Source: Lachnospiraceae bacterium
Lineage (GTDB): Bacteria > Bacillota > Clostridia > Lachnospirales > Lachnospiraceae
Length of the DNA stretch: 64,000 nt
NCBI GenBank assembly: GCA_015056915.1
Contig: SVFK01000002.1
Location: 62,001 to 126,000 of the forward strand
Direction of reading: 5' to 3'
In this document: positions 53,152-64,000 of the stretch, in pieces
Layout: each line of letters opens with the position of its first letter
Position numbering within the stretch: the first letter of the stretch is position 1
Notes under the pieces: generated by a model
Databases searched by the model: none
The model's input: the letters and a program-made list of their open reading frames with translations, nothing else
What the model was told of the DNA's origin: nothing
Position numbers and translations under genes: made by a program

Positions 53152-56100
53152 ATGGCTAAGGCTTCTAAGAAAAACAATAGAAAAAAGAGAAAAGTAATAA
53201 GAAAAACATTGGGAACCCTGTTTTTGGCATCTGCTATTTTAGTGGCAGCGATTCCGGTGGAGGGATTGGAAGCATCTGACGGAAGTACTGCCAGAAGCAC
53301 AAGAACAGAAGAATACAAGGTAACGATAGAACAGGCGGATACTAAGATTCCGACCATAACACCGGAGGAACCCATTTACACTACCGCAGACGGTACCTAT
53401 CAGTTTGCGTATGTAAGTACATCAGGCTCCAATCAGAAGTTTGCAGTTATTCTGGGATACAATAAGCTCAATGTATTGGAAGGCAATAGGCTCTCTATTC
53501 CGGAATCAGTGGACGCTTATGTACAATATACCTATAGTATGGGTACCACGAGAGGTTATGTGGCTGTAGGAAAAGCGAACAACCCGCTTTTCTATGAATA
53601 CACGTGGACAGAATATCAGGATGAAGAAGTGGTGGATCCGGAAACAGGAGAGACTACTGTAAATCAGATACCGATTCTAAAGGGCGAGCTTCGCCCCTGC
53701 TATGTGGAAGATATTGCGAACTGGCAGGATACGGATTTGGAAGAATTTTATTTTGAAAAATCCGGTTCCAACAGTACCAGTAGTGCTACCAACAATACCT
53801 ATGAAAACTTTGCCAAAACTACTACTGAGGACTATCAGCGTATTCAGGGCGCAGAGGTCAGATATATCGGTAATCAGTACCTGACAGAGGAGGATGGTAA
53901 CTGGAAGGTTGAGGCAGACAATTTTGTTACGGAAGATACTTGTGAAATGGGTATCTTTGCAGACTGTGGTAATATCGTAGATTTACAGGTGGGCGAGAAG
54001 CTGCTTGGTATCGGTAATTATGCGTTCTGGCATTGTACCGGTCTCAAGAGTATTTCCTTAGGAAATGGTGTTAATACCATCGGTAATGGCGCGTTCAGTG
54101 ATTGCGCCAATATGCAGACCATCAGCATGCCTGTCAACTCTAATATCAGTATAATCGGAAGCCAGGCCTTTTATAATTGTAGAGCACTTCAAAGCTTTGT
54201 GATGCCGGCATCCGTATCCAAAATCGGTGATTCTGCTTTTGAAGGCTGTACCACTATGTCAAGTGTTGACTTGTGTAGTGCCGGTCAAAACAACGTACTT
54301 ACTGAGTTGGGCTGGGATTTGTTTAAGAATTGTGAATCCTTAAAATCTATCACCTTCCCAGCAGCCTATGCGGAAACGGTTGATATTTCCATGTTTGAGG
54401 GCTGTAAGAATCTACGATTTATTACAGCACAGAATAAGAATTTAAGCTTTACGGAGGAAGACGGAATATATACCTTTGATAAGTTTAAAGAGATGCTGGC
54501 AGAGGAGCCTGTGGCAGGTACCTTCTATTTTGAAGGCTTCAGAGGCTCTGCGTTGCATGATTTTGCTAAAAAGTATTGCTTTGCCTTCAGTTACATCAAT
54601 TCTGACGAAGGTGAATTTTATAAAGAGGATCGCTATGAGCTTACCGTGGAGGATGAGGATACCGGTGGAAAGACAACTTATGTGGTGAATTCCTCCAATC
54701 AGCTGATTGCAAGCTCCTTTGAGGGCAATGTGGCCACTCTTGATATTCCCAGTCAGATTGGTCCTTACGGTATCAGTAAGATTGAATCAGGAGTGTTCCA
54801 GAATAAGTGTAATCTTCTTGAGGTTACTATTCCTGCTACAGTGAAGGAGATTGCAGAAAATGCGTTTAAGGGCTGTCATAATCTGGCAAATGTGATTTTT
54901 GAATCCGGTGATATTACCATAGGTACGGATGCTTTCAAGACGCAGGAGAATACCGCGCATACCTGTGGCGGTACGGTAGAAACCGTAAGCGATAACACCC
55001 CGCTTGTACGGTTGCATTTTACAGGACCTATATCTACCACATCCGGTCCCTTTAACTATGCAATGAGCAGTAGTGGAAGATACAATGCAACAGGACAGAA
55101 GGAAAGTTTTATTACCTACTATAGCGGTTGGCCGCAGAATCTGGAAGTAAGATATAATTATGATGCTTCCACCGGAAACGGTAAAAGTGAATTGGTAGAT
55201 TTTCCTGCATTTACAGAATTGCAGGGTAAATATACGCAGGCTAATTATGCCTATATTACCTCAGAGCATGAGGAAGCGGCAGACAAAGCCTTGGAACAGT
55301 ACAGAAATGATCCTGTAAATATGACGGAGAATCAGCGTGCCATTATTAATGCTGCATTAGCTCTTGAGATTCCGGAAGGAATACAAAGTATTAGAGCAGG
55401 CTTGTTCCAGGAGAAGGAAGCCAGTGACGGAAGTAATATCAAAAAGACGATTACAGCCTATGGCTTAGACGATATTCAATCGGCTGCGTTTGCAGACTGT
55501 AACAGCTTAAAAGAGGTTACTTTGCTGGGAGATACTACGACTATCGGCGAGTACGCATTTGATGGATGTAGCAGTCTTGATACAGTGTCAATACTTGGCA
55601 ATACGCAGACTATTGAGGATTACGCTTTCAATGATTGTACAAAGCTGCAAAATGTTTCCGTATCAGATACGGTAAACTCTTTGGGTATTCGTCCTTTTGC
55701 AGGATGTGAAACGTTAAGTAATGTTAATTTCCAGAATAATCCTGATTATATATGTGAGAATTCCATTATTTTCGGATTGAAAAACGGAGTAAAGGATTCC
55801 ATTGTGCAGTGTCTGGAGGGCAGAGAGTCCAAATATGTTCGTTCTTCGGATGTTGCCGGTGTTACCAGCTTGGAGCCGGAAGCATTTATGGGAACAAGCG
55901 TAAAGGAAGTGGATTTGACAGACACTACAGTAAGTGTGATTCCTACCAGAGCATTTGCGGACACAAGTGAACTTCGAACTGTAAAATTACCTTATACATG
56001 TCAGATGCTTTCTGATTATGTGTTCGAGGACAGTAATGTGGACTATATTGAGGCACCTGTTGCTCTGACATTGTTAGACCAGAATGCATTTGCTGATTTG

Positions 56101-57840
56101 CTGAGAGCGAATAGCGAGGTTACCATTTGTTGTGAGCCGGATAGCTATATTGATCAATACGCTAAGCTGAATGGCTTTGACACTACGGAAATGCCCATAG
56201 AGAGATATTATACTGTATCTTTCTGGGATTGGGATGAAACACTGGGAAAGAATGTACTGGTAAAGGAACAGGATGTGCTTAGTGGTAAGGATGCTGAGCC
56301 TCCTACACCTGCCGGCAAAGCGGGATATGTATTCTCCAAGTGGGACCCTGACTATAAGGAAATTTATGAAGATACCTTCTGTATGGCAGTGTATGATACA
56401 GAACCGGAAGATTATAACAAGTTTAAGGTTGTATTCCAGGATTATGACGGTACGGAATTGAAGGTGGTATATGTAGAGGCAGGCGGCACTGCGGAGCCTC
56501 CTTCTGATCCTTCAAGAGAAGGATATACCTTTAGTGGCTGGGACCGTGTGCTCACCAATATTCAGGAAAGCTTTACTACAAAGGCTGTGTACGATGAAAT
56601 TCCTGAAGGCAAATTTGTGGTGCGCTATATTGACAGGGACGACAATGTTATTTATACGGCACTTGTGAGTGCAGGAGAAGATGCACCATCAATTCAGGTT
56701 CCTGAAGTGGAAGGTTATGTGTTTACCGGATGGAGACCCGCGATTACCGGAATTACAAAGGATACGGATGCCTATGCGCAGTATGAAAAGATTGATGCTG
56801 ACGGTAGTGGCAATGGAAGCGGCGATGGCTCCGGCAATGGCTCCGGCAATGGCTCCGGCAATGGAAGCGGCGATGGCTCCGGTAATGGAAGCGGTGATGG
56901 TAGTGGCAATGGAAGCGGTGATGGCTCCGGTAACGGAAATGGTACGGACGCAACATCTAAAACATATATTTTGACAGTAAAAGGAGGTAGTGGTTCCGGT
57001 AGTTATGTGGCAGGTTCACAGCCTATCATTATCGCAAATGATCCTCCGGCAGGACAGGAATTTGCCAGCTGGACAGTGGAACCCTCTACAGTTACCATTG
57101 CAAGTAAGGTGTTATCAGCGACGGTTATTACCATGCCGGCAGAAAATGTTACAATTACTGCCAACTATAAAGCAAAGACGGGCGGTTCTGGAAATTCAGG
57201 AGACGGAAGTACCTCCGGTTCTGATAGCAACAAGCCCAATAGTAATGCCGGCACCAATGCGGGTGGTACTACAGTAGTTATTGACAAGAACGGTTTGTCT
57301 AATACCGGTGTGGTATCTGCAACCGTAAACGGTTCCTCTGATAATTTTACCATTAAAATTACGGAGAGCAGTGCTGCGGCAGAGGCGGCTGTAAAGGCAT
57401 TAATGGCAGAATACGGTGACTTGACTAACATCAAGTATTTCCCTATGGATATTAGCTTGTATGATTCTGCAGGAAATAAGAAAATTACGGATACCAGAGG
57501 CTTGTCTATCAGTATTACATTGCCATTACCGGATTCCTTGATTACATACGCCGGTAATAATAAGGTTGCAGGCATTGTAAACGACAGGCTGGATAAGCTG
57601 GATGCGAAGTTTACAACGATTTCAGGTGTATCCTGTGTTATCTTTACAGCGGAGCATTTTTCACCTTATGTGATTTATGTGGATACGAATAATTTAACAG
57701 CGGGAACCGTGGCGGATTCTACTCCGAAAACCGGTGACGGCATCCACCCGAAATGGTTCCTGTCAATCGGACTTGCCTGCATAGCTATTGTTCTCTTTGT
57801 GAAAAAGGACAAGAAGGTATTACGTCAGGCTACAGTGTAG
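53152..57840 (+). CDS. Sortase-anchored BspA-type leucine-rich-repeat surface protein with InlB B-repeats
   Basis: A 1562-residue cell wall protein. A basic signal peptide (1-42) leads to a ~200-residue N-terminal region, then two sets of BspA-like LRR_5 repeats (about 270-430 and 535-1010; 'GNYAFWHCTGLKSISLGNGV' style). Three InlB B-repeat modules follow (~1020-1210; 'GYVFSKWDPDYKEIYEDTF'), a (Gly-Ser-Gly-Asn/Asp) linker (~1218-1262), a further Flg_new-like domain ('ITMPAENVTITANY'), a C-terminal beta domain and the sorting signal TPKTG at 1524-1528 with a membrane span and Lys-rich tail. Expected role is adhesion or matrix binding; the ligand is unknown. It directly follows srtB. Confidence 0.88.
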   Translation: MAKASKKNNRKKRKVIRKTLGTLFLASAILVAAIPVEGLEASDGSTARSTRTEEYKVTIEQADTKIPTITPEEPIYTTADGTYQFAYVSTSGSNQKFAVILGYNKLNVLEGNRLSIPESVDAYVQYTYSMGTTRGYVAVGKANNPLFYEYTWTEYQDEEVVDPETGETTVNQIPILKGELRPCYVEDIANWQDTDLEEFYFEKSGSNSTSSATNNTYENFAKTTTEDYQRIQGAEVRYIGNQYLTEEDGNWKVEADNFVTEDTCEMGIFADCGNIVDLQVGEKLLGIGNYAFWHCTGLKSISLGNGVNTIGNGAFSDCANMQTISMPVNSNISIIGSQAFYNCRALQSFVMPASVSKIGDSAFEGCTTMSSVDLCSAGQNNVLTELGWDLFKNCESLKSITFPAAYAETVDISMFEGCKNLRFITAQNKNLSFTEEDGIYTFDKFKEMLAEEPVAGTFYFEGFRGSALHDFAKKYCFAFSYINSDEGEFYKEDRYELTVEDEDTGGKTTYVVNSSNQLIASSFEGNVATLDIPSQIGPYGISKIESGVFQNKCNLLEVTIPATVKEIAENAFKGCHNLANVIFESGDITIGTDAFKTQENTAHTCGGTVETVSDNTPLVRLHFTGPISTTSGPFNYAMSSSGRYNATGQKESFITYYSGWPQNLEVRYNYDASTGNGKSELVDFPAFTELQGKYTQANYAYITSEHEEAADKALEQYRNDPVNMTENQRAIINAALALEIPEGIQSIRAGLFQEKEASDGSNIKKTITAYGLDDIQSAAFADCNSLKEVTLLGDTTTIGEYAFDGCSSLDTVSILGNTQTIEDYAFNDCTKLQNVSVSDTVNSLGIRPFAGCETLSNVNFQNNPDYICENSIIFGLKNGVKDSIVQCLEGRESKYVRSSDVAGVTSLEPEAFMGTSVKEVDLTDTTVSVIPTRAFADTSELRTVKLPYTCQMLSDYVFEDSNVDYIEAPVALTLLDQNAFADLLRANSEVTICCEPDSYIDQYAKLNGFDTTEMPIERYYTVSFWDWDETLGKNVLVKEQDVLSGKDAEPPTPAGKAGYVFSKWDPDYKEIYEDTFCMAVYDTEPEDYNKFKVVFQDYDGTELKVVYVEAGGTAEPPSDPSREGYTFSGWDRVLTNIQESFTTKAVYDEIPEGKFVVRYIDRDDNVIYTALVSAGEDAPSIQVPEVEGYVFTGWRPAITGITKDTDAYAQYEKIDADGSGNGSGDGSGNGSGNGSGNGSGDGSGNGSGDGSGNGSGDGSGNGNGTDATSKTYILTVKGGSGSGSYVAGSQPIIIANDPPAGQEFASWTVEPSTVTIASKVLSATVITMPAENVTITANYKAKTGGSGNSGDGSTSGSDSNKPNSNAGTNAGGTTVVIDKNGLSNTGVVSATVNGSSDNFTIKITESSAAAEAAVKALMAEYGDLTNIKYFPMDISLYDSAGNKKITDTRGLSISITLPLPDSLITYAGNNKVAGIVNDRLDKLDAKFTTISGVSCVIFTAEHFSPYVIYVDTNNLTAGTVADSTPKTGDGIHPKWFLSIGLACIAIVLFVKKDKKVLRQATV
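56803..56934 (+). repeat. Tandem 12-bp repeat encoding (Gly-Ser-Gly-Asn/Asp)
   Basis: Eleven in-frame copies of a 12-base unit (GGCTCCGGCAAT and variants) code for a flexible spacer between surface domains. Several adjacent copies are identical, so unit number may vary between strains by slippage or recombination without breaking the frame. Confidence 0.9.
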
Positions 57841-57911: not shown

Positions 57912-60002
57912 ATGAAGAGAAAGAGAAAGCTGTTCGGTATACTGTTTATTATAACGGCACTACTCATAATGCAGATTCCAGTAGCGGAAGCAGATGCGGC
58001 AACATCTGCTTCTGATTTTAAAGTGGAAGGCGATACCTTGGTAAAGTATCAGGGTACAGAGAAAAGTGTAACGGTTCCCAATACAGTGGAAGTAATCGGT
58101 GAGGATGCTTTTGAAGGCAATACGAATATTGAACGTGTGGTACTTCCCAATTCGGTTACCAGAATCGATGCTTATGCATTCTGGGGCTGTGAAAATCTGG
58201 AAAGCGTCATATTGGGCGATGGCTTAATTGAGGTCGGAGATTATGTTTTTGCTAACTGCAAGGGCTTAAAAACCATGTCTATTCCTTCTAATATCAGAAG
58301 TATTGGTATTCAGGCATTTGTAGACTGTGTCAACATGACGGATATTGATATTCCACCTGAGGTTATAAGTATCCATGATACGGCTTTTGATGGCTGCTAT
58401 AGACTGATGATTCATGCGGAAGTGGGAAGTATAGCAGATAAGTATGCCAAGGAATTCTATGAAAAGCAAAAGGAAATGCCGGAATACGAGGATGTTGCTG
58501 ATTATGAATCGGATGAGGAGAATACTGAGGATAAGGATGCAGATGATAAGACCAATTCTTCTGATTCGTCGGAAACAGTTACAGGAGCAACTATCGGTTC
58601 CACTAAAGTCGTTGGTAATCAGGCCGTCGTTTTTGTTGACAACACCAACCTGGAAGTTCTAGAGGGAAAAGAGAATACAGAAGTGTTGGAAACTACAAAA
58701 CAGGATGAAGAAATATCTGTACAGGGTATTCCGAAATATACGATAGTGGATGAGACTGTGGTTGCCGATCAGGCATATTACCGAAGCAAGAATTTAGAGG
58801 CTGTAACATTGCCGGAAGGAATTAAGGAAATCGGTCAGTTTGCATTTGCAAGAAGTTCTGTTAAGGAAATATTACTGCCTGATGGTGTTGAAACCATTGG
58901 ATATGGTGCTTTCTATCATTGCGATGCTTTGACGAAGATAGAATTGCCTCAGACAATTACCAATGTGGAACCCAAGACATTCACTCATACTGCATGGGTC
59001 GATTCTTTTATACAAAATGGAACGGAAGATTTTTTGGTCAGCGGCGGTGTCCTTGTGGCATATCGCGGCAATCATCAACAAGTTACCATACCTGAGGGGG
59101 TAAGAGTCATTGCAGGAGAAGCGTTTGCAGGACATTCGGAGATTAGCGAGCTTACGTTGCCGAATAGTCTGGTGACGATTGGTGAGGCGGCTTTTGAAAA
59201 TTGTACAGGACTTAAGAACGTATTTTGGGGAGAACAGCTTCAACAGATTAAGGACAGAGCATTTGTGGGATGTGCAATTACGACAGCGACTCTTCCTGCA
59301 TCGGTAGAAGAAATGGGCTTAAAGGCATTTGATGAAAAGGTGGAGCTGAAATACGGTGGAGGTCATATACCGGCGCAGACCATAGAAACGTCTGCCCAAA
59401 GATTGTCAAATGAGTCTTACAGACCATGTAAGGATGAAACAGATGAGGCAGGCGTGACGGTATATGGAGTAGAGCATGCATATGCACATCTGGAGGGGGC
59501 TGCAAGAAGCTATTCTCTTACGATAGCAGAAACGGCAGATAAGACTAATATTGAGAAGGCGTTTTCCAGAAATCTGCAAAGTGAAATGCCTGTAGATGTG
59601 GTTATTTATGATTTGTTGCTTACAGATAACAGTGGCATCCCGATTACGAAGCTGGGCAAACAACCGATTCAGGTGACATTGCCGGTGCCGGAGAGTCTTG
59701 CCGCTCAGAATTTGCGATTATTTGTTGTTGACAGAAACGGACAGCTTGAAGAATTACCGGTAGAGAGAGTGAAGCTGGACGGAGTAGATAGCTTCCGCTT
59801 TACTACCAATTATGTATCTCAGATAGCTTTATCGGGCAACGGCACTCATTTTGATGAGTCTTATATTTTGGAGGAAACTACAAGTATTGTGAGTATGAGT
59901 GGTGCCCCTCAAAAGTCCCCTTCTGTATTGCCGCCCCTTCAGTGGGGAGTGGCAGGCATTCTTACACTGGTCGGTATATGCTGTATATTTTGGAAACGAT
60001 AA
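57912..60002 (+). CDS. BspA-type leucine-rich-repeat surface protein, membrane-anchored
   Basis: A 696-residue relative of the preceding protein. It has a signal peptide (1-29), LRR_5 repeats at about 40-165, an acidic linker (~190-225), more LRR_5 repeats (~275-480; 'ITNVEPKTFTHTAWVDSFIQ'), and a C-terminal beta domain similar in plan to that of its neighbour. It ends in a hydrophobic helix (676-696; 'GVAGILTLVGICCIFWKR') with no LPXTG-like motif before it, so it should stay in the membrane rather than be a sortase substrate. GGAAGG precedes the ATG 70 bases after the first LRR gene. Confidence 0.85.
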   Translation: MKRKRKLFGILFIITALLIMQIPVAEADAATSASDFKVEGDTLVKYQGTEKSVTVPNTVEVIGEDAFEGNTNIERVVLPNSVTRIDAYAFWGCENLESVILGDGLIEVGDYVFANCKGLKTMSIPSNIRSIGIQAFVDCVNMTDIDIPPEVISIHDTAFDGCYRLMIHAEVGSIADKYAKEFYEKQKEMPEYEDVADYESDEENTEDKDADDKTNSSDSSETVTGATIGSTKVVGNQAVVFVDNTNLEVLEGKENTEVLETTKQDEEISVQGIPKYTIVDETVVADQAYYRSKNLEAVTLPEGIKEIGQFAFARSSVKEILLPDGVETIGYGAFYHCDALTKIELPQTITNVEPKTFTHTAWVDSFIQNGTEDFLVSGGVLVAYRGNHQQVTIPEGVRVIAGEAFAGHSEISELTLPNSLVTIGEAAFENCTGLKNVFWGEQLQQIKDRAFVGCAITTATLPASVEEMGLKAFDEKVELKYGGGHIPAQTIETSAQRLSNESYRPCKDETDEAGVTVYGVEHAYAHLEGAARSYSLTIAETADKTNIEKAFSRNLQSEMPVDVVIYDLLLTDNSGIPITKLGKQPIQVTLPVPESLAAQNLRLFVVDRNGQLEELPVERVKLDGVDSFRFTTNYVSQIALSGNGTHFDESYILEETTSIVSMSGAPQKSPSVLPPLQWGVAGILTLVGICCIFWKR

Positions 60003-60036: not shown

Positions 60037-60074
60037 ATCCCCGGCATAAAATACATTAAATTTATGCCGGGGAT
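60037..60074 (+). terminator. Perfect 14-bp hairpin before the subtilase gene
   Basis: ATCCCCGGCATAAA (60037-60050) pairs perfectly with 60061-60074 around a 10-base loop. There is no T-run after it, and the 3' arm includes the only Shine-Dalgarno-like GGGG ahead of the subtilase ATG at 60083. It may terminate the LRR operon, gate translation of the subtilase, or both. Confidence 0.55.
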
Positions 60075-60082
60075 TGTGTGTT

Positions 60083-60991
60083 ATGCAGCGTGTGAGAAAG
60101 CAGATTGAGCTTCCACCGGATACTTTGGATAAAAAGAGTCGTGGCGTTTCAGTGGCAGTACTGGATACCGGAATTGGAAGACATCCTGATTTGGCAGGGA
60201 AATTAATGTGTTTTCATGATTTTGTTGGTAATAAAAATTTGATGTATGATGACAATGGACATGGAACCCATGTGTGCGGGATTATATGTGCGAATGGTAG
60301 TCTGTCGGCAGGGGAGTATCAAGGGATTGCGCCGCGTACTATGCTGGTGGTAGGAAAGGTGCTCGATGCTAAGGGTGACGGAACCACGGAGGCTATGCTG
60401 GAAGGATTAAGGTGGGTACTTTCCATCCGAGAGAAATATCGGATAAGAATATTAAATATTTCTGTGGGAATCGGCAACTTGAATGACAGCAAAAAGGAAA
60501 AGGCATTGCGAAGGCAGATTGATGAGCTGTGGGATAGCGGAATTGTGGTAATCTGTGCTGCAGGCAATAAGGGTCCCCAAAACGGCTCTGTGTCTTCGGT
60601 GGGAAGAAGTCAAAAGGTAATTACAGTAGGCTGCCATGACGGAGTATATTGCAGGAATAATCCCAAGCGATGTGAAACCTATTCCGGTCGCGGGAATGCG
60701 CTGGATTCCATGCGTAAGCCGGATATTGTTGCACCGGGGACGGATATTATTTCTTGTGACGGCGATTGTTATAAAGCAAATGGAGAATATCAGAATACCT
60801 ATATTGCCAAGAGCGGTACATCCATGGCTACGCCTATTGTGACAGGCGCAATCGCACGGTTGTTGGAAAAGTTTCCTCAGATGACCAATGAGGAGGTGAA
60901 GCAGAAATTGACGTATACTGCCACAGATTTAGGGGAGCCTTGGAATAAACAGGGCTGGGGCATGATAAATGCTCATAGGCTGTTGGAATAA
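60083..60991 (+). CDS. S8 family subtilisin-like serine protease, apparently intracellular
   Basis: A 302-residue protease with a complete triad: Asp28 in 'VLDTGIG', His60 in 'NGHGTHVCG' and Ser247 in 'SGTSMATP', plus the oxyanion Asn in 'CAAGNKGP'. There is no signal peptide and only ~20 residues before the catalytic domain, so it resembles intracellular subtilisins, possibly with a very short propeptide. The ATG at 60083 is preferred; the track's start is a TTG nine bases upstream. Its ribosome site is weak and lies in a hairpin. Proximity to the sortase/LRR genes might mean processing of surface proteins, but without an export signal this is doubtful. Confidence 0.9.
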   Translation: MQRVRKQIELPPDTLDKKSRGVSVAVLDTGIGRHPDLAGKLMCFHDFVGNKNLMYDDNGHGTHVCGIICANGSLSAGEYQGIAPRTMLVVGKVLDAKGDGTTEAMLEGLRWVLSIREKYRIRILNISVGIGNLNDSKKEKALRRQIDELWDSGIVVICAAGNKGPQNGSVSSVGRSQKVITVGCHDGVYCRNNPKRCETYSGRGNALDSMRKPDIVAPGTDIISCDGDCYKANGEYQNTYIAKSGTSMATPIVTGAIARLLEKFPQMTNEEVKQKLTYTATDLGEPWNKQGWGMINAHRLLE

Positions 60992-61018: not shown

Positions 61019-61059
61019 TTGACACGCCTCGTATGATTGTATACAATAATACGAGGCGT
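61019..61059 (+). promoter_or_regulatory. Promoter with 36-bp palindromic operator for the citrate synthase operon
   Basis: TTGACA (61019-61024) and TACAAT (61042-61047) are 17 bases apart. A palindrome spans 61024-61059: outer arms ACGCCTCGTAT/ATACGAGGCGT match perfectly, the centre is TTGTATACAA, and only two base pairs between them fail. TTGTATACAA is the type of site bound by FadR/FCD-class GntR proteins, and such a regulator is encoded in this operon, so autoregulation is likely. Confidence 0.75.
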
Positions 61060-61131: not shown

Positions 61132-62544
61132 ATGAGAGATAATGATACATTTCAGAATCGTCCGGTTACAATGAACCAAAAGAATAATTTGTTGCAGATA
61201 GAAGAGCATATGTACATATTGGATGATGTGGAAAAGCCGAATGTGTTCCGCAATATGTTTCCTTATTCAGAAATCCCTAAAATACCGTTTAATGACAGAA
61301 TCGTTCCTCACAATATGCCGAAGGAAATCTGGATAACAGATACGACCTTTCGTGATGGACAGCAGTCTCGTGCGCCATATACCACAGAGCAGATTGTAAA
61401 AATTTATGATTATCTGCATGAATTGGGCGGCCCAAACGGCATGATTCGTGCAAGTGAATTCTTCTTATATAGTAAAAAGGATAGAGATGCCGTATACAAA
61501 TGTATGGAAAGAGGCTATAAGTTTCCTGAGGTCACCAGTTGGATTCGTGCAAGCAAGGAAGATTTTAAGCTGGTAAAGGAAATCGGCATGAAGGAAACCG
61601 GTATTCTGGTAAGCTGTTCCGATTATCACATTTTTATGAAGCTGAAGATGACCAGACGTCAGGCAATGGAACATTATCTGAGTGTGATTCGTGATTGTCT
61701 GGAGGAGGGCATCAGCCCAAGATGTCATCTTGAGGATATTACCAGAGCAGATATTTACGGTTATGTAGTACCTTTTTGTCTGGAACTGATGAAACTGATG
61801 AAGGAATATAATATTCCCATTAAAGTACGTGCCTGCGATACCATGGGCTATGGTGTGAATTATCCGGGTGCGGTTATTCCCAGAAGTGTACAGGGTATTA
61901 TCTATGCACTTCATGTACATGCGGGTGTCCCCTGCGAATTGATTGAATGGCATGGACATAATGATTTTTATAAGGCAGTATCCAATTCTACCACAGCATG
62001 GCTTTACGGCTGTGCAGGCATTAATACATCCCTTTTCGGTATTGGTGAGAGAACCGGTAATACCCCTCTTGAAGCAATGGTATTTGAATATGCACAGCTT
62101 AAAGGTGATTTAAACGGTATGGATACCAGAGTTATCACGGAATTGGCGGAATATTATGAGAAGGAAATCGGTTATGAGATTCCTCCCCGTACGCCTTTTG
62201 TGGGTAAGAATTTTAATGTTACCAGAGCGGGTATCCATGCAGACGGACTTTTAAAGAATGAGGAAATCTATAATATTTTTGATACGGAGAAATTCCTGAA
62301 TCGACCTGTGTTATGTGCTATTTCCAATACCTCGGGACTGGCAGGAATTGCACATTGGATTAACACCTATTATAAGCTTAAGAATGAAGCACAGGTGGAT
62401 AAGAATTCTGAGCTTGTAAAGGAAATCAAGAAATGGGTTGACGATGAGTATGCAGGAGGACGTGTGACGGTACTTACAGATGAGGAAATCATTGCGTGCC
62501 TGAATCGTGTGTGCTTGGAGAAAAATATTACACTTGGTGAATAG
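61132..62544 (+). CDS. Probable Re-citrate synthase (homocitrate/isopropylmalate synthase family)
   Basis: A 470-residue DRE-TIM metallolyase that condenses acetyl-CoA with a 2-oxoacid. 'WITDTTFRDGQQSRAPYTTEQI' holds the catalytic Arg and metal Asp, and 'EWHGHNDFYKAV' the metal-binding histidines. The sequence plan 'GGPNGMIRASEFFLYSKKDRDAV' matches what I recall of clostridial Re-citrate synthase, and the operon continues with GntR and isocitrate dehydrogenase, which supports citrate rather than homocitrate or isopropylmalate as product. Start at ATG 61132 with an AGAGGG site; the track start lies over the promoter. Alternative: homocitrate synthase. Leucine-pathway genes are absent. Confidence 0.75.
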   Translation: MRDNDTFQNRPVTMNQKNNLLQIEEHMYILDDVEKPNVFRNMFPYSEIPKIPFNDRIVPHNMPKEIWITDTTFRDGQQSRAPYTTEQIVKIYDYLHELGGPNGMIRASEFFLYSKKDRDAVYKCMERGYKFPEVTSWIRASKEDFKLVKEIGMKETGILVSCSDYHIFMKLKMTRRQAMEHYLSVIRDCLEEGISPRCHLEDITRADIYGYVVPFCLELMKLMKEYNIPIKVRACDTMGYGVNYPGAVIPRSVQGIIYALHVHAGVPCELIEWHGHNDFYKAVSNSTTAWLYGCAGINTSLFGIGERTGNTPLEAMVFEYAQLKGDLNGMDTRVITELAEYYEKEIGYEIPPRTPFVGKNFNVTRAGIHADGLLKNEEIYNIFDTEKFLNRPVLCAISNTSGLAGIAHWINTYYKLKNEAQVDKNSELVKEIKKWVDDEYAGGRVTVLTDEEIIACLNRVCLEKNITLGE

Positions 62545-62581: not shown

Positions 62582-63283
62582 TTGGGTAATTATGATGTAA
62601 AACAGGAAGTAACTGATAAATACTCCCTGCGCGGAAGAGTGTTCCACAAGCTACGAGATGATATTTTGAGCGGTAAGTATGAGGAGCATGAGGAATTAAA
62701 GGAAGTGGCAATCGGTGAGGAAATGGGCGTCAGCAGGACTCCTGTAAGAGAGGCTTTCCGTCAGCTTGAACTGGAGGGACTTATTCAGATTATTCCTAAT
62801 AAGGGAGCCTATGTCACCGGAATCACAGAGAAGGATGTTAAGGATATTTACATGATTCGCTCTCTGCTGGAGGGGTTATGTGCGCGTTGGGCTACAGAGC
62901 ATATTACCAAGGAGCAGATGGAGGAGATGGAGGAAAATGTGTATCTTGCGCAGTTTCATGCCAGAAAAGGGCATTTGGAGCAGCTGGCAGAGCTGGATAA
63001 TCGTTTTCATGATATTCTGTATGAAGCATGTAACAGCAAAATACTGGAGCATCAATTAAAGGATTTTCATCAATATGTGCTTCGTGTGCGCAAGAAGACC
63101 CTTGCCAATGCCAACAGAGGACCCCAATCCAACAAAGAGCACGAAGAAATCATGGAAGCAATTAAGGCGGGAAATGCAGAGCTTGCAGAAATGCTTGCTA
63201 ACCGTCATATGATTAATGCCTATGAAAATATGGTGCAGAATGGACTGCACGAGGCATATGAACGGAAAGAAAATGCCAAATAG
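62582..63283 (+). CDS. GntR family regulator, FadR/FCD class
   Basis: A 233-residue repressor-type protein. Residues ~10-75 form the winged helix ('GRVFHKLRDDILSGKY', 'IGEEMGVSRTPVREAFRQLELEGLIQIIPNKGAYV'), and 80-220 the all-helical FCD effector domain with metal or acid-binding His and Asp ('ELDNRFHDILYEAC', 'NKEHEEIMEAIKAG', 'LANRHMINAYENM'). The start is taken as TTG 62582, eight bases after GGAGAG; the track's start lies inside the synthase gene. It probably binds the palindrome at the operon promoter and senses a carboxylic acid such as citrate, by inference. Confidence 0.88.
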   Translation: MGNYDVKQEVTDKYSLRGRVFHKLRDDILSGKYEEHEELKEVAIGEEMGVSRTPVREAFRQLELEGLIQIIPNKGAYVTGITEKDVKDIYMIRSLLEGLCARWATEHITKEQMEEMEENVYLAQFHARKGHLEQLAELDNRFHDILYEACNSKILEHQLKDFHQYVLRVRKKTLANANRGPQSNKEHEEIMEAIKAGNAELAEMLANRHMINAYENMVQNGLHEAYERKENAK

Positions 63284-63361
63284 ACTGTTATCTCATAAAG
63301 ATATGTGCTAAAATGTAAAAGGTCTATAGAAGGATAGAGAAGCGAAAGGATGTACGCAAAC

Positions 63362-64000
63362 ATGGAAAAGATTAGAATGACGACCCCGTTAGTAGAGATG
63401 GACGGAGATGAAATGACCAGAATACTGTGGCAGATGATTAAGGATGAACTGTTACTGCCATACATAGATTTGAAGACAGAATACTATGATCTGGGTCTTG
63501 AGTATCGTAATGCAACCAACGATCAGGTGACAGTGGATTCTGCCAATGCAACGTTAAAGTATGGTGTTGCCGTAAAATGTGCAACCATTACTCCCAATGC
63601 AGCCAGAATGACTGAGTATGACTTAAAAGAAATGTGGAAGAGTCCGAACGGAACCATTCGTGCCATTTTGGACGGAACCGTGTTCCGCGCACCGATTCTG
63701 GTAAAGGGAATTGTACCTTATGTAAAGAATTGGATGAAGCCTATCACCATTGCCCGTCATGCTTACGGTGATGTTTATAAAAATACGGAAATCAAAGTGC
63801 CCGGTGCCGGAAAGGCAGAGCTGGTATACACAGCAGAAGACGGTACAGAGGTAAGAGAGGTTATTCATAACTTCAAGGGTGCCGGTATCTTACAGGGTAT
63901 TCATAATACAGAGGAATCCATCAGCAGTTTTGCAAGAGCATGCTTTGCGTATGCAGTAGATACCAAGCAGGATTTGTGGTTCTCTACGAAGGATACCATC
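63362..64000 (+). CDS. icd: NADP-type isocitrate dehydrogenase (5' part; runs off the window)
   Basis: The first 213 codons of an isocitrate dehydrogenase of the eukaryote-like dimeric class: '[35 protein letters not shown]' and '[42 protein letters not shown]' are diagnostic, the latter including the substrate-binding Ser-Pro-Asn-Gly-Thr. '[13 protein letters not shown]' follows. It oxidises isocitrate to 2-oxoglutarate with NADP+. An in-frame ATG at 63350 sits too close to AAAGG, so 63362 is preferred. The gene continues beyond 64000 and was therefore missing from the ORF track. With the citrate synthase-like gene it makes the route to glutamate. Confidence 0.93.

Follow-up and report, generated by a model that had tools for sequence, protein, structure and literature searches.

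A conserved 22-bp core, probably a GntR operator, with co-varying outer arms at the promoter of a synthase-gntR-icd operon in Lachnospiraceae

The operon and the dyad over its promoter

The window analysed here, a stretch of 64 kb, belongs to a 2.2-Mb draft genome in 24 contigs, whose closest named relatives carry the names Acetatifactor or Lachnospiraceae. Three genes on the forward strand form the operon at its end. The first (61132..62544) encodes an HMGL-like (DRE-TIM) synthase, the second (62591..63283, start codon uncertain) a GntR-FCD regulator, our proposed autoregulator, and the third is icd (63350..64000, running off the window), whose NADP-dependent isocitrate dehydrogenase scored above the NF006156 cut-off. 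The regulator matched PF00392 and PF07729 above cut-off, confirming the sequence-only reading, which had placed a GntR-FCD gene second in a citrate synthase/gntR/icd operon. Both gntR and icd hold in that description, but the synthase is matched at the level of the HMGL-like family only: every synthase model match was under its cut-off, and no citrate synthase model was among the matches. The relatives of this protein in the libraries searched were homocitrate, isopropylmalate and citramalate synthases only. Matches below cut-off to the homocitrate and isopropylmalate synthase models are presumably what a Re-type citrate synthase would give, and from its sequence the first gene product is probably such an enzyme.

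Upstream of the operon and co-directional with it lies a gene for an S8 subtilisin-like peptidase (60074..60991, forward strand); of 113 relatives, 89 have it in the same place and direction. No terminator was found in the 27 nt between the end of this gene and the -35 box. Immediately 5' of the peptidase gene, at 60038-60073, we noted a terminator-like palindrome (TCCCCGGCATAAA...TTTATGCCGGGGA); thus, the peptidase gene probably starts a new transcript, which could enter the synthase operon. In ten relatives (L067, L070, L111, L134, L144, L161, L162, L167, L174, and L177), the TGA stop codon of the peptidase gene lies within the TTGACA -35 box and ends 19 nt ahead of the dyad centre. Further upstream, two large proteins are encoded at 57912-60002 and 53152-57840, with stretches that by eye resemble leucine-rich repeats.

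The start of the operon is covered by a zero-gap dyad at 61024-61059 with 17 of 18 pairs matching (arms 61024-61041 and 61042-61059, 18 nt each without spacer, 94% complementary, single mismatch at ±7). By chance, 7e-5 zero-gap dyads with at least 17/18 pairs are expected in 64 kb. The window holds one other zero-gap 36-mer with at least 14/18 pairs, a terminator-like stem at 60055 (15/18), and the best score in ten shuffles of the window was 14/18. TTGACA-17-TACAAT, with the -35 box at 61019..61024 and the -10 box at 61042..61047 of the forward strand, was the top promoter match of the region (11/12). The dyad extends from the final base of the -35 box to beyond the likely start site (~61053), precisely the near-perfect 36-bp dyad that had been described from the sequence alone.

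At the centre of the dyad lies the inner operator TTGTATACAA (61037..61046, no strand assigned), and TACAAT forms the right half of this inner palindrome. The surrounding 22-bp core GTATGATTGTATACAATAATAC (61031..61052, likewise unstranded) is our proposed GntR operator. It is flanked on the forward strand by the left outer arm ACGCCTC (61024..61030), comprising the last -35 base and part of the spacer, and the right outer arm GAGGCGT (61053..61059), both of which are variable and co-varying in relatives. With the start site predicted as above, the right outer arm probably provides the first nucleotides of the mRNA. A divergent symmetric promoter was rejected, as the right arm contains no good minus-strand -35 box. 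A search for an intrinsic terminator (GC-rich stem plus T tract) found none at the dyad, and an Rfam scan of the region returned three chance-level matches, all far under the gathering score. Seven other TTGTATACAA sites in the genome were set aside because they lack the extended core.

Conservation of the core and its co-occurrence with gntR

For comparison, 138 genomes of the genus, together with a public genome collection, yielded 121 distinct operons. The promoter and the 22-bp core, GTATnATTGTATACAATnATAC with few changes, were found in the same register in 120 of the 121 operons, and the same number had the -35 box at the same position, ATTGTATACAAT with at most two mismatches, a purine at position +12 and a C before it. 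The -10 box read TACAAT in 112 operons and TACACT in seven. Wherever the following gene could be checked, it was gntR with a single exception (116/117). Beyond ±11 from the centre, conservation dropped. Among relatives that keep the operon, the palindrome of the sequence-only reading thus comes apart: its core survives and its arms do not.

Within the core, a GTAT/ATAC box occupies positions ±8 to 11; its right side is conserved in most genera, its left side less often. The core was found in most of 40 regions from other genera, with the left outer GTAT box as the least constant element. Since the box at +8 to +11 doubles as the promoter discriminator, promoter constraint may account for some of its conservation.

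In a set of 299 Lachnospiraceae genomes, TTGTATACAATnATAC was present in 118 of 134 genomes with this GntR versus 10 of 165 without it (Fisher p 3e-52). Conversely, 16 genomes of the family possess this GntR and lack the exact site, and the 10 with the site give no match to this GntR. Two genomes, G044 and G132, have no synthase match, yet keep a perfect core, which in G044 is located directly 5' of gntR-icd. Thus, the site tracks gntR even without a synthase match, as expected of an autoregulatory operator. The view that the core serves the GntR-FCD protein of this very operon, as originally proposed, is strongly supported by the conservation, the co-occurrence with gntR and this persistence; through this operator, the protein most likely regulates its own operon.

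A probable second target and the proposed regulation

Most genomes contain exactly two core sites (up to two mismatches), and a reversed-pattern control nearly always gave zero. The second site precedes the gene for a PF12897 aspartate aminotransferase at all 33 loci where this gene is present; in the source genome, it lies ~109 nt ahead of the gene start. A TATGAT-like box just 5' of this site was observed, and the position of the site appears suited to repression. Additional core-like sites away from the aspartate aminotransferase gene occur in a few relatives, namely L238, L240, L241, and L256.

Operators of the FadR subfamily follow the consensus GTM-N0-1-KAC, and a weaker extra box can lie 7-12 nt away from the middle of the site on one or both sides (Suvorova et al. 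2015, PMC4494728). The sequence TTGTATACAA, conserved in the genus operons as described above, has the corresponding TTGT and ACAA (TKGT/ACMA boxes) in the GT-A-T-AC arrangement. As in the FadR/FCD systems, the regulator gene, with its GntR helix-turn-helix and FCD domains, belongs to the operon and is accompanied by the site across genomes, and the GTAT/ATAC box falls within the range reported for the extra half-boxes (PMC4494728). Extra GntR subunits, if there are any, may by analogy bind this box inside the core and not the outer arms. Unlike the operators of that subfamily, the present dyad is lengthened by arms past ±12 to 36-40 bp in some species, with unconserved sequence. Judged by its sequence, the operator is of the known FadR/FCD kind, and the co-varying arms set it apart. 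The FadR set of Suvorova et al. includes one Clostridia transcription factor, and citrate is unmentioned (PMC4494728). Our literature searches on ATTGTATACAAT and on GntR proteins with Re-citrate synthase found nothing relevant.

We consider it likely that the FCD-type GntR specified by the second gene uses the 22-bp core as its operator, that this protein represses its own operon with the aminotransferase gene as a second target, and that the outer arms extend the dyad in a lineage-specific, sequence-free manner without forming a second conserved binding site. Conservation, co-occurrence, the second site and the arm covariation are observed; binding of the regulator at 61031-61052, repression, the ligand and the origin of the arms are inferred. 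Placed downstream of the -35 box and upstream of the start site, the core spans the -10 box, so that bound GntR should exclude RNA polymerase and thereby autorepress synthase-gntR-icd. Together with the aminotransferase gene, this would make up a small regulon spanning the oxaloacetate-citrate-2-oxoglutarate-glutamate branch. The synthase, icd and aminotransferase products connect these four metabolites, so a ligand from that set is likely to be the signal, and its binding would probably release GntR. A comparable protein is CitO of Enterococcus faecalis, likewise an FCD GntR with citrate-related genes, whose binding sites lie upstream of promoters and which switches on citrate-utilisation genes in the presence of citrate (PMC4746285). 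Unlike the CitO sites, the one described here lies across a promoter, that of genes presumed to be biosynthetic, which is repressor geometry. Such a two-target regulon would belong to a regulator present in nearly half of the Lachnospiraceae genera sampled, and it would govern carbon entry into glutamate in gut anaerobes.

That the core is conserved through promoter constraint alone, with a coincidental palindrome, is very improbable: all conserved bases of the right side do overlap the -10 box or the discriminator, but conservation extends to the left half, which falls in the spacer, TACAAT is nearly fixed instead of the consensus TATAAT, and the core recurs ahead of the aminotransferase gene and tracks gntR.

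Covariation and origin of the outer arms

Most species with the operon lack the outer arms (±12 to ±18). The six extra pairs of the arms are complete in 31 of 120 sites, compared with a mean of 1.8 and a maximum of 8 in shuffles that combined left and right sides from different species, and the complete arms comprise 14 different sequences. On a phylogeny built from the synthase and gntR genes, we counted ~22 double changes from one paired state to another versus 0.3-7.7 for slid controls, a contrast that is somewhat flattered because the slid controls begin with fewer paired states. Single changes that break a pair were more frequent (~107) than the pair-keeping double changes; thus, the arms turn over quickly. 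At the aminotransferase-gene site, arms are absent. As a control, a Rex-type palindrome was tried and gave zero exact sites in 41 genomes; CIRCE was used in its place, and no arm extension was seen at 30 CIRCE operators of the genus. The mismatch at ±7 was rejected as a G-T wobble signal, as the pair frequency approximates the product of the separate base frequencies. The direction of the upstream gene was rejected as a cause of the arms, since this gene is mostly co-directional at armed and unarmed sites alike.

Most likely, the arms are made and repaired by template-switch copying between them, weakly favoured by selection as a hairpin that forms in transcripts entering from the peptidase gene, or both. 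We regard template switching and RNA-level selection as about equally likely and not mutually exclusive. A tentative view embracing both, which we hold at somewhat less than even chances, is that the same DNA serves as operator, promoter and fast-evolving hairpin, with arms whose sequence is free while their complementarity is maintained, serving either to insulate the operon from read-through at the RNA level or as a natural template-switch hotspot within a promoter.

Taken separately, a purely mutational origin is possible, with rather more doubt attached: the hairpin-forming core would prime template switching, and one arm would be copied to the other, extending or repairing the dyad as a functionless by-product. 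Consistent with copying, long arm pairs are contiguous and in register with the core in 31 of 35 cases, the arms are patchy on the tree, and parts of the -35 box reappear on the other side, the pair at position 18 being formed at 17 of 31 fully armed versus 13 of 69 poorly armed sites; L204 and L304 show such copying of the -35 box as well. Template switching has been proposed elsewhere to create and maintain hairpins whose inverted-repeat arms co-change over evolution, as here (PMC8794818). Those hairpins were described for RNA genes, whereas the present one is a promoter-operator whose left arm lies outside the operon's own transcript. Against this origin, the CIRCE palindromes of the same genus offer no counterpart, and among the near relatives L018, L138, and L132, the change of an arm can resemble single-pair steps via a T-G intermediate.

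Selection of the arms as an RNA hairpin appears a little more doubtful still. Here, transcripts from the peptidase gene would cross the promoter, the whole dyad would fold, and the RNA would end or be stabilised, which would insulate the operon. The frequent co-directional peptidase gene fits this scheme, as does the predicted folding of the read-through RNA of the region at -24.9 kcal/mol (z -4.8). T-rich DNA follows 7 of 39 armed sites versus 1 of 70 others, mismatches at armed sites are G-T/T-G (11) more often than A-C/C-A (4), and a peptidase stop codon within 19 nt of the centre goes with fewer arms (2/16 versus 30/73). Each of these statistics, with p between 0.003 and 0.06, is weak and ignores relatedness. 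Armed positions are also richer in GC, but the excess appears in chance-paired combinations too (0.60). Most armed sites, including that of the window, lack a T tract, and the left arm is not part of RNA from the operon's own promoter.

From the length of the arms, it had been suggested that a second protein or cooperative dimers bind there. Symmetry in register with the core, the common CTC/GAG adjoining it and the precedent of NanR, a GntR-type repressor that places three dimers on a three-box operator (PMC8012715), would accord with a second protein or a second pair of GntR dimers. However, we consider this improbable. The arms are variable in sequence, mostly absent from operon-keeping species and missing at the second target, which disfavours a second sequence-specific protein and speaks against the arms as its fixed landing site. 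Moreover, other genera provided seven long arm pairs, and two of these, in L304 and L313, are off register. Palindrome length alone is thus no evidence of extra protein contacts: these arms co-vary like an RNA stem, yet flank an operator. They are a trap for motif finding, and the site provides a natural case for template switching or hairpin insulation at promoters.

In L313, the long inverted arms ACACGGTCAAAGC and GGCTTTGGCCGTGT surround the same core about six bases off register, and the left GTAT box is lost. In L304, CAAAGTCA stands on the right side with a two-base shift; it is the reverse complement of TGACTTTG, which includes part of the -35 box.
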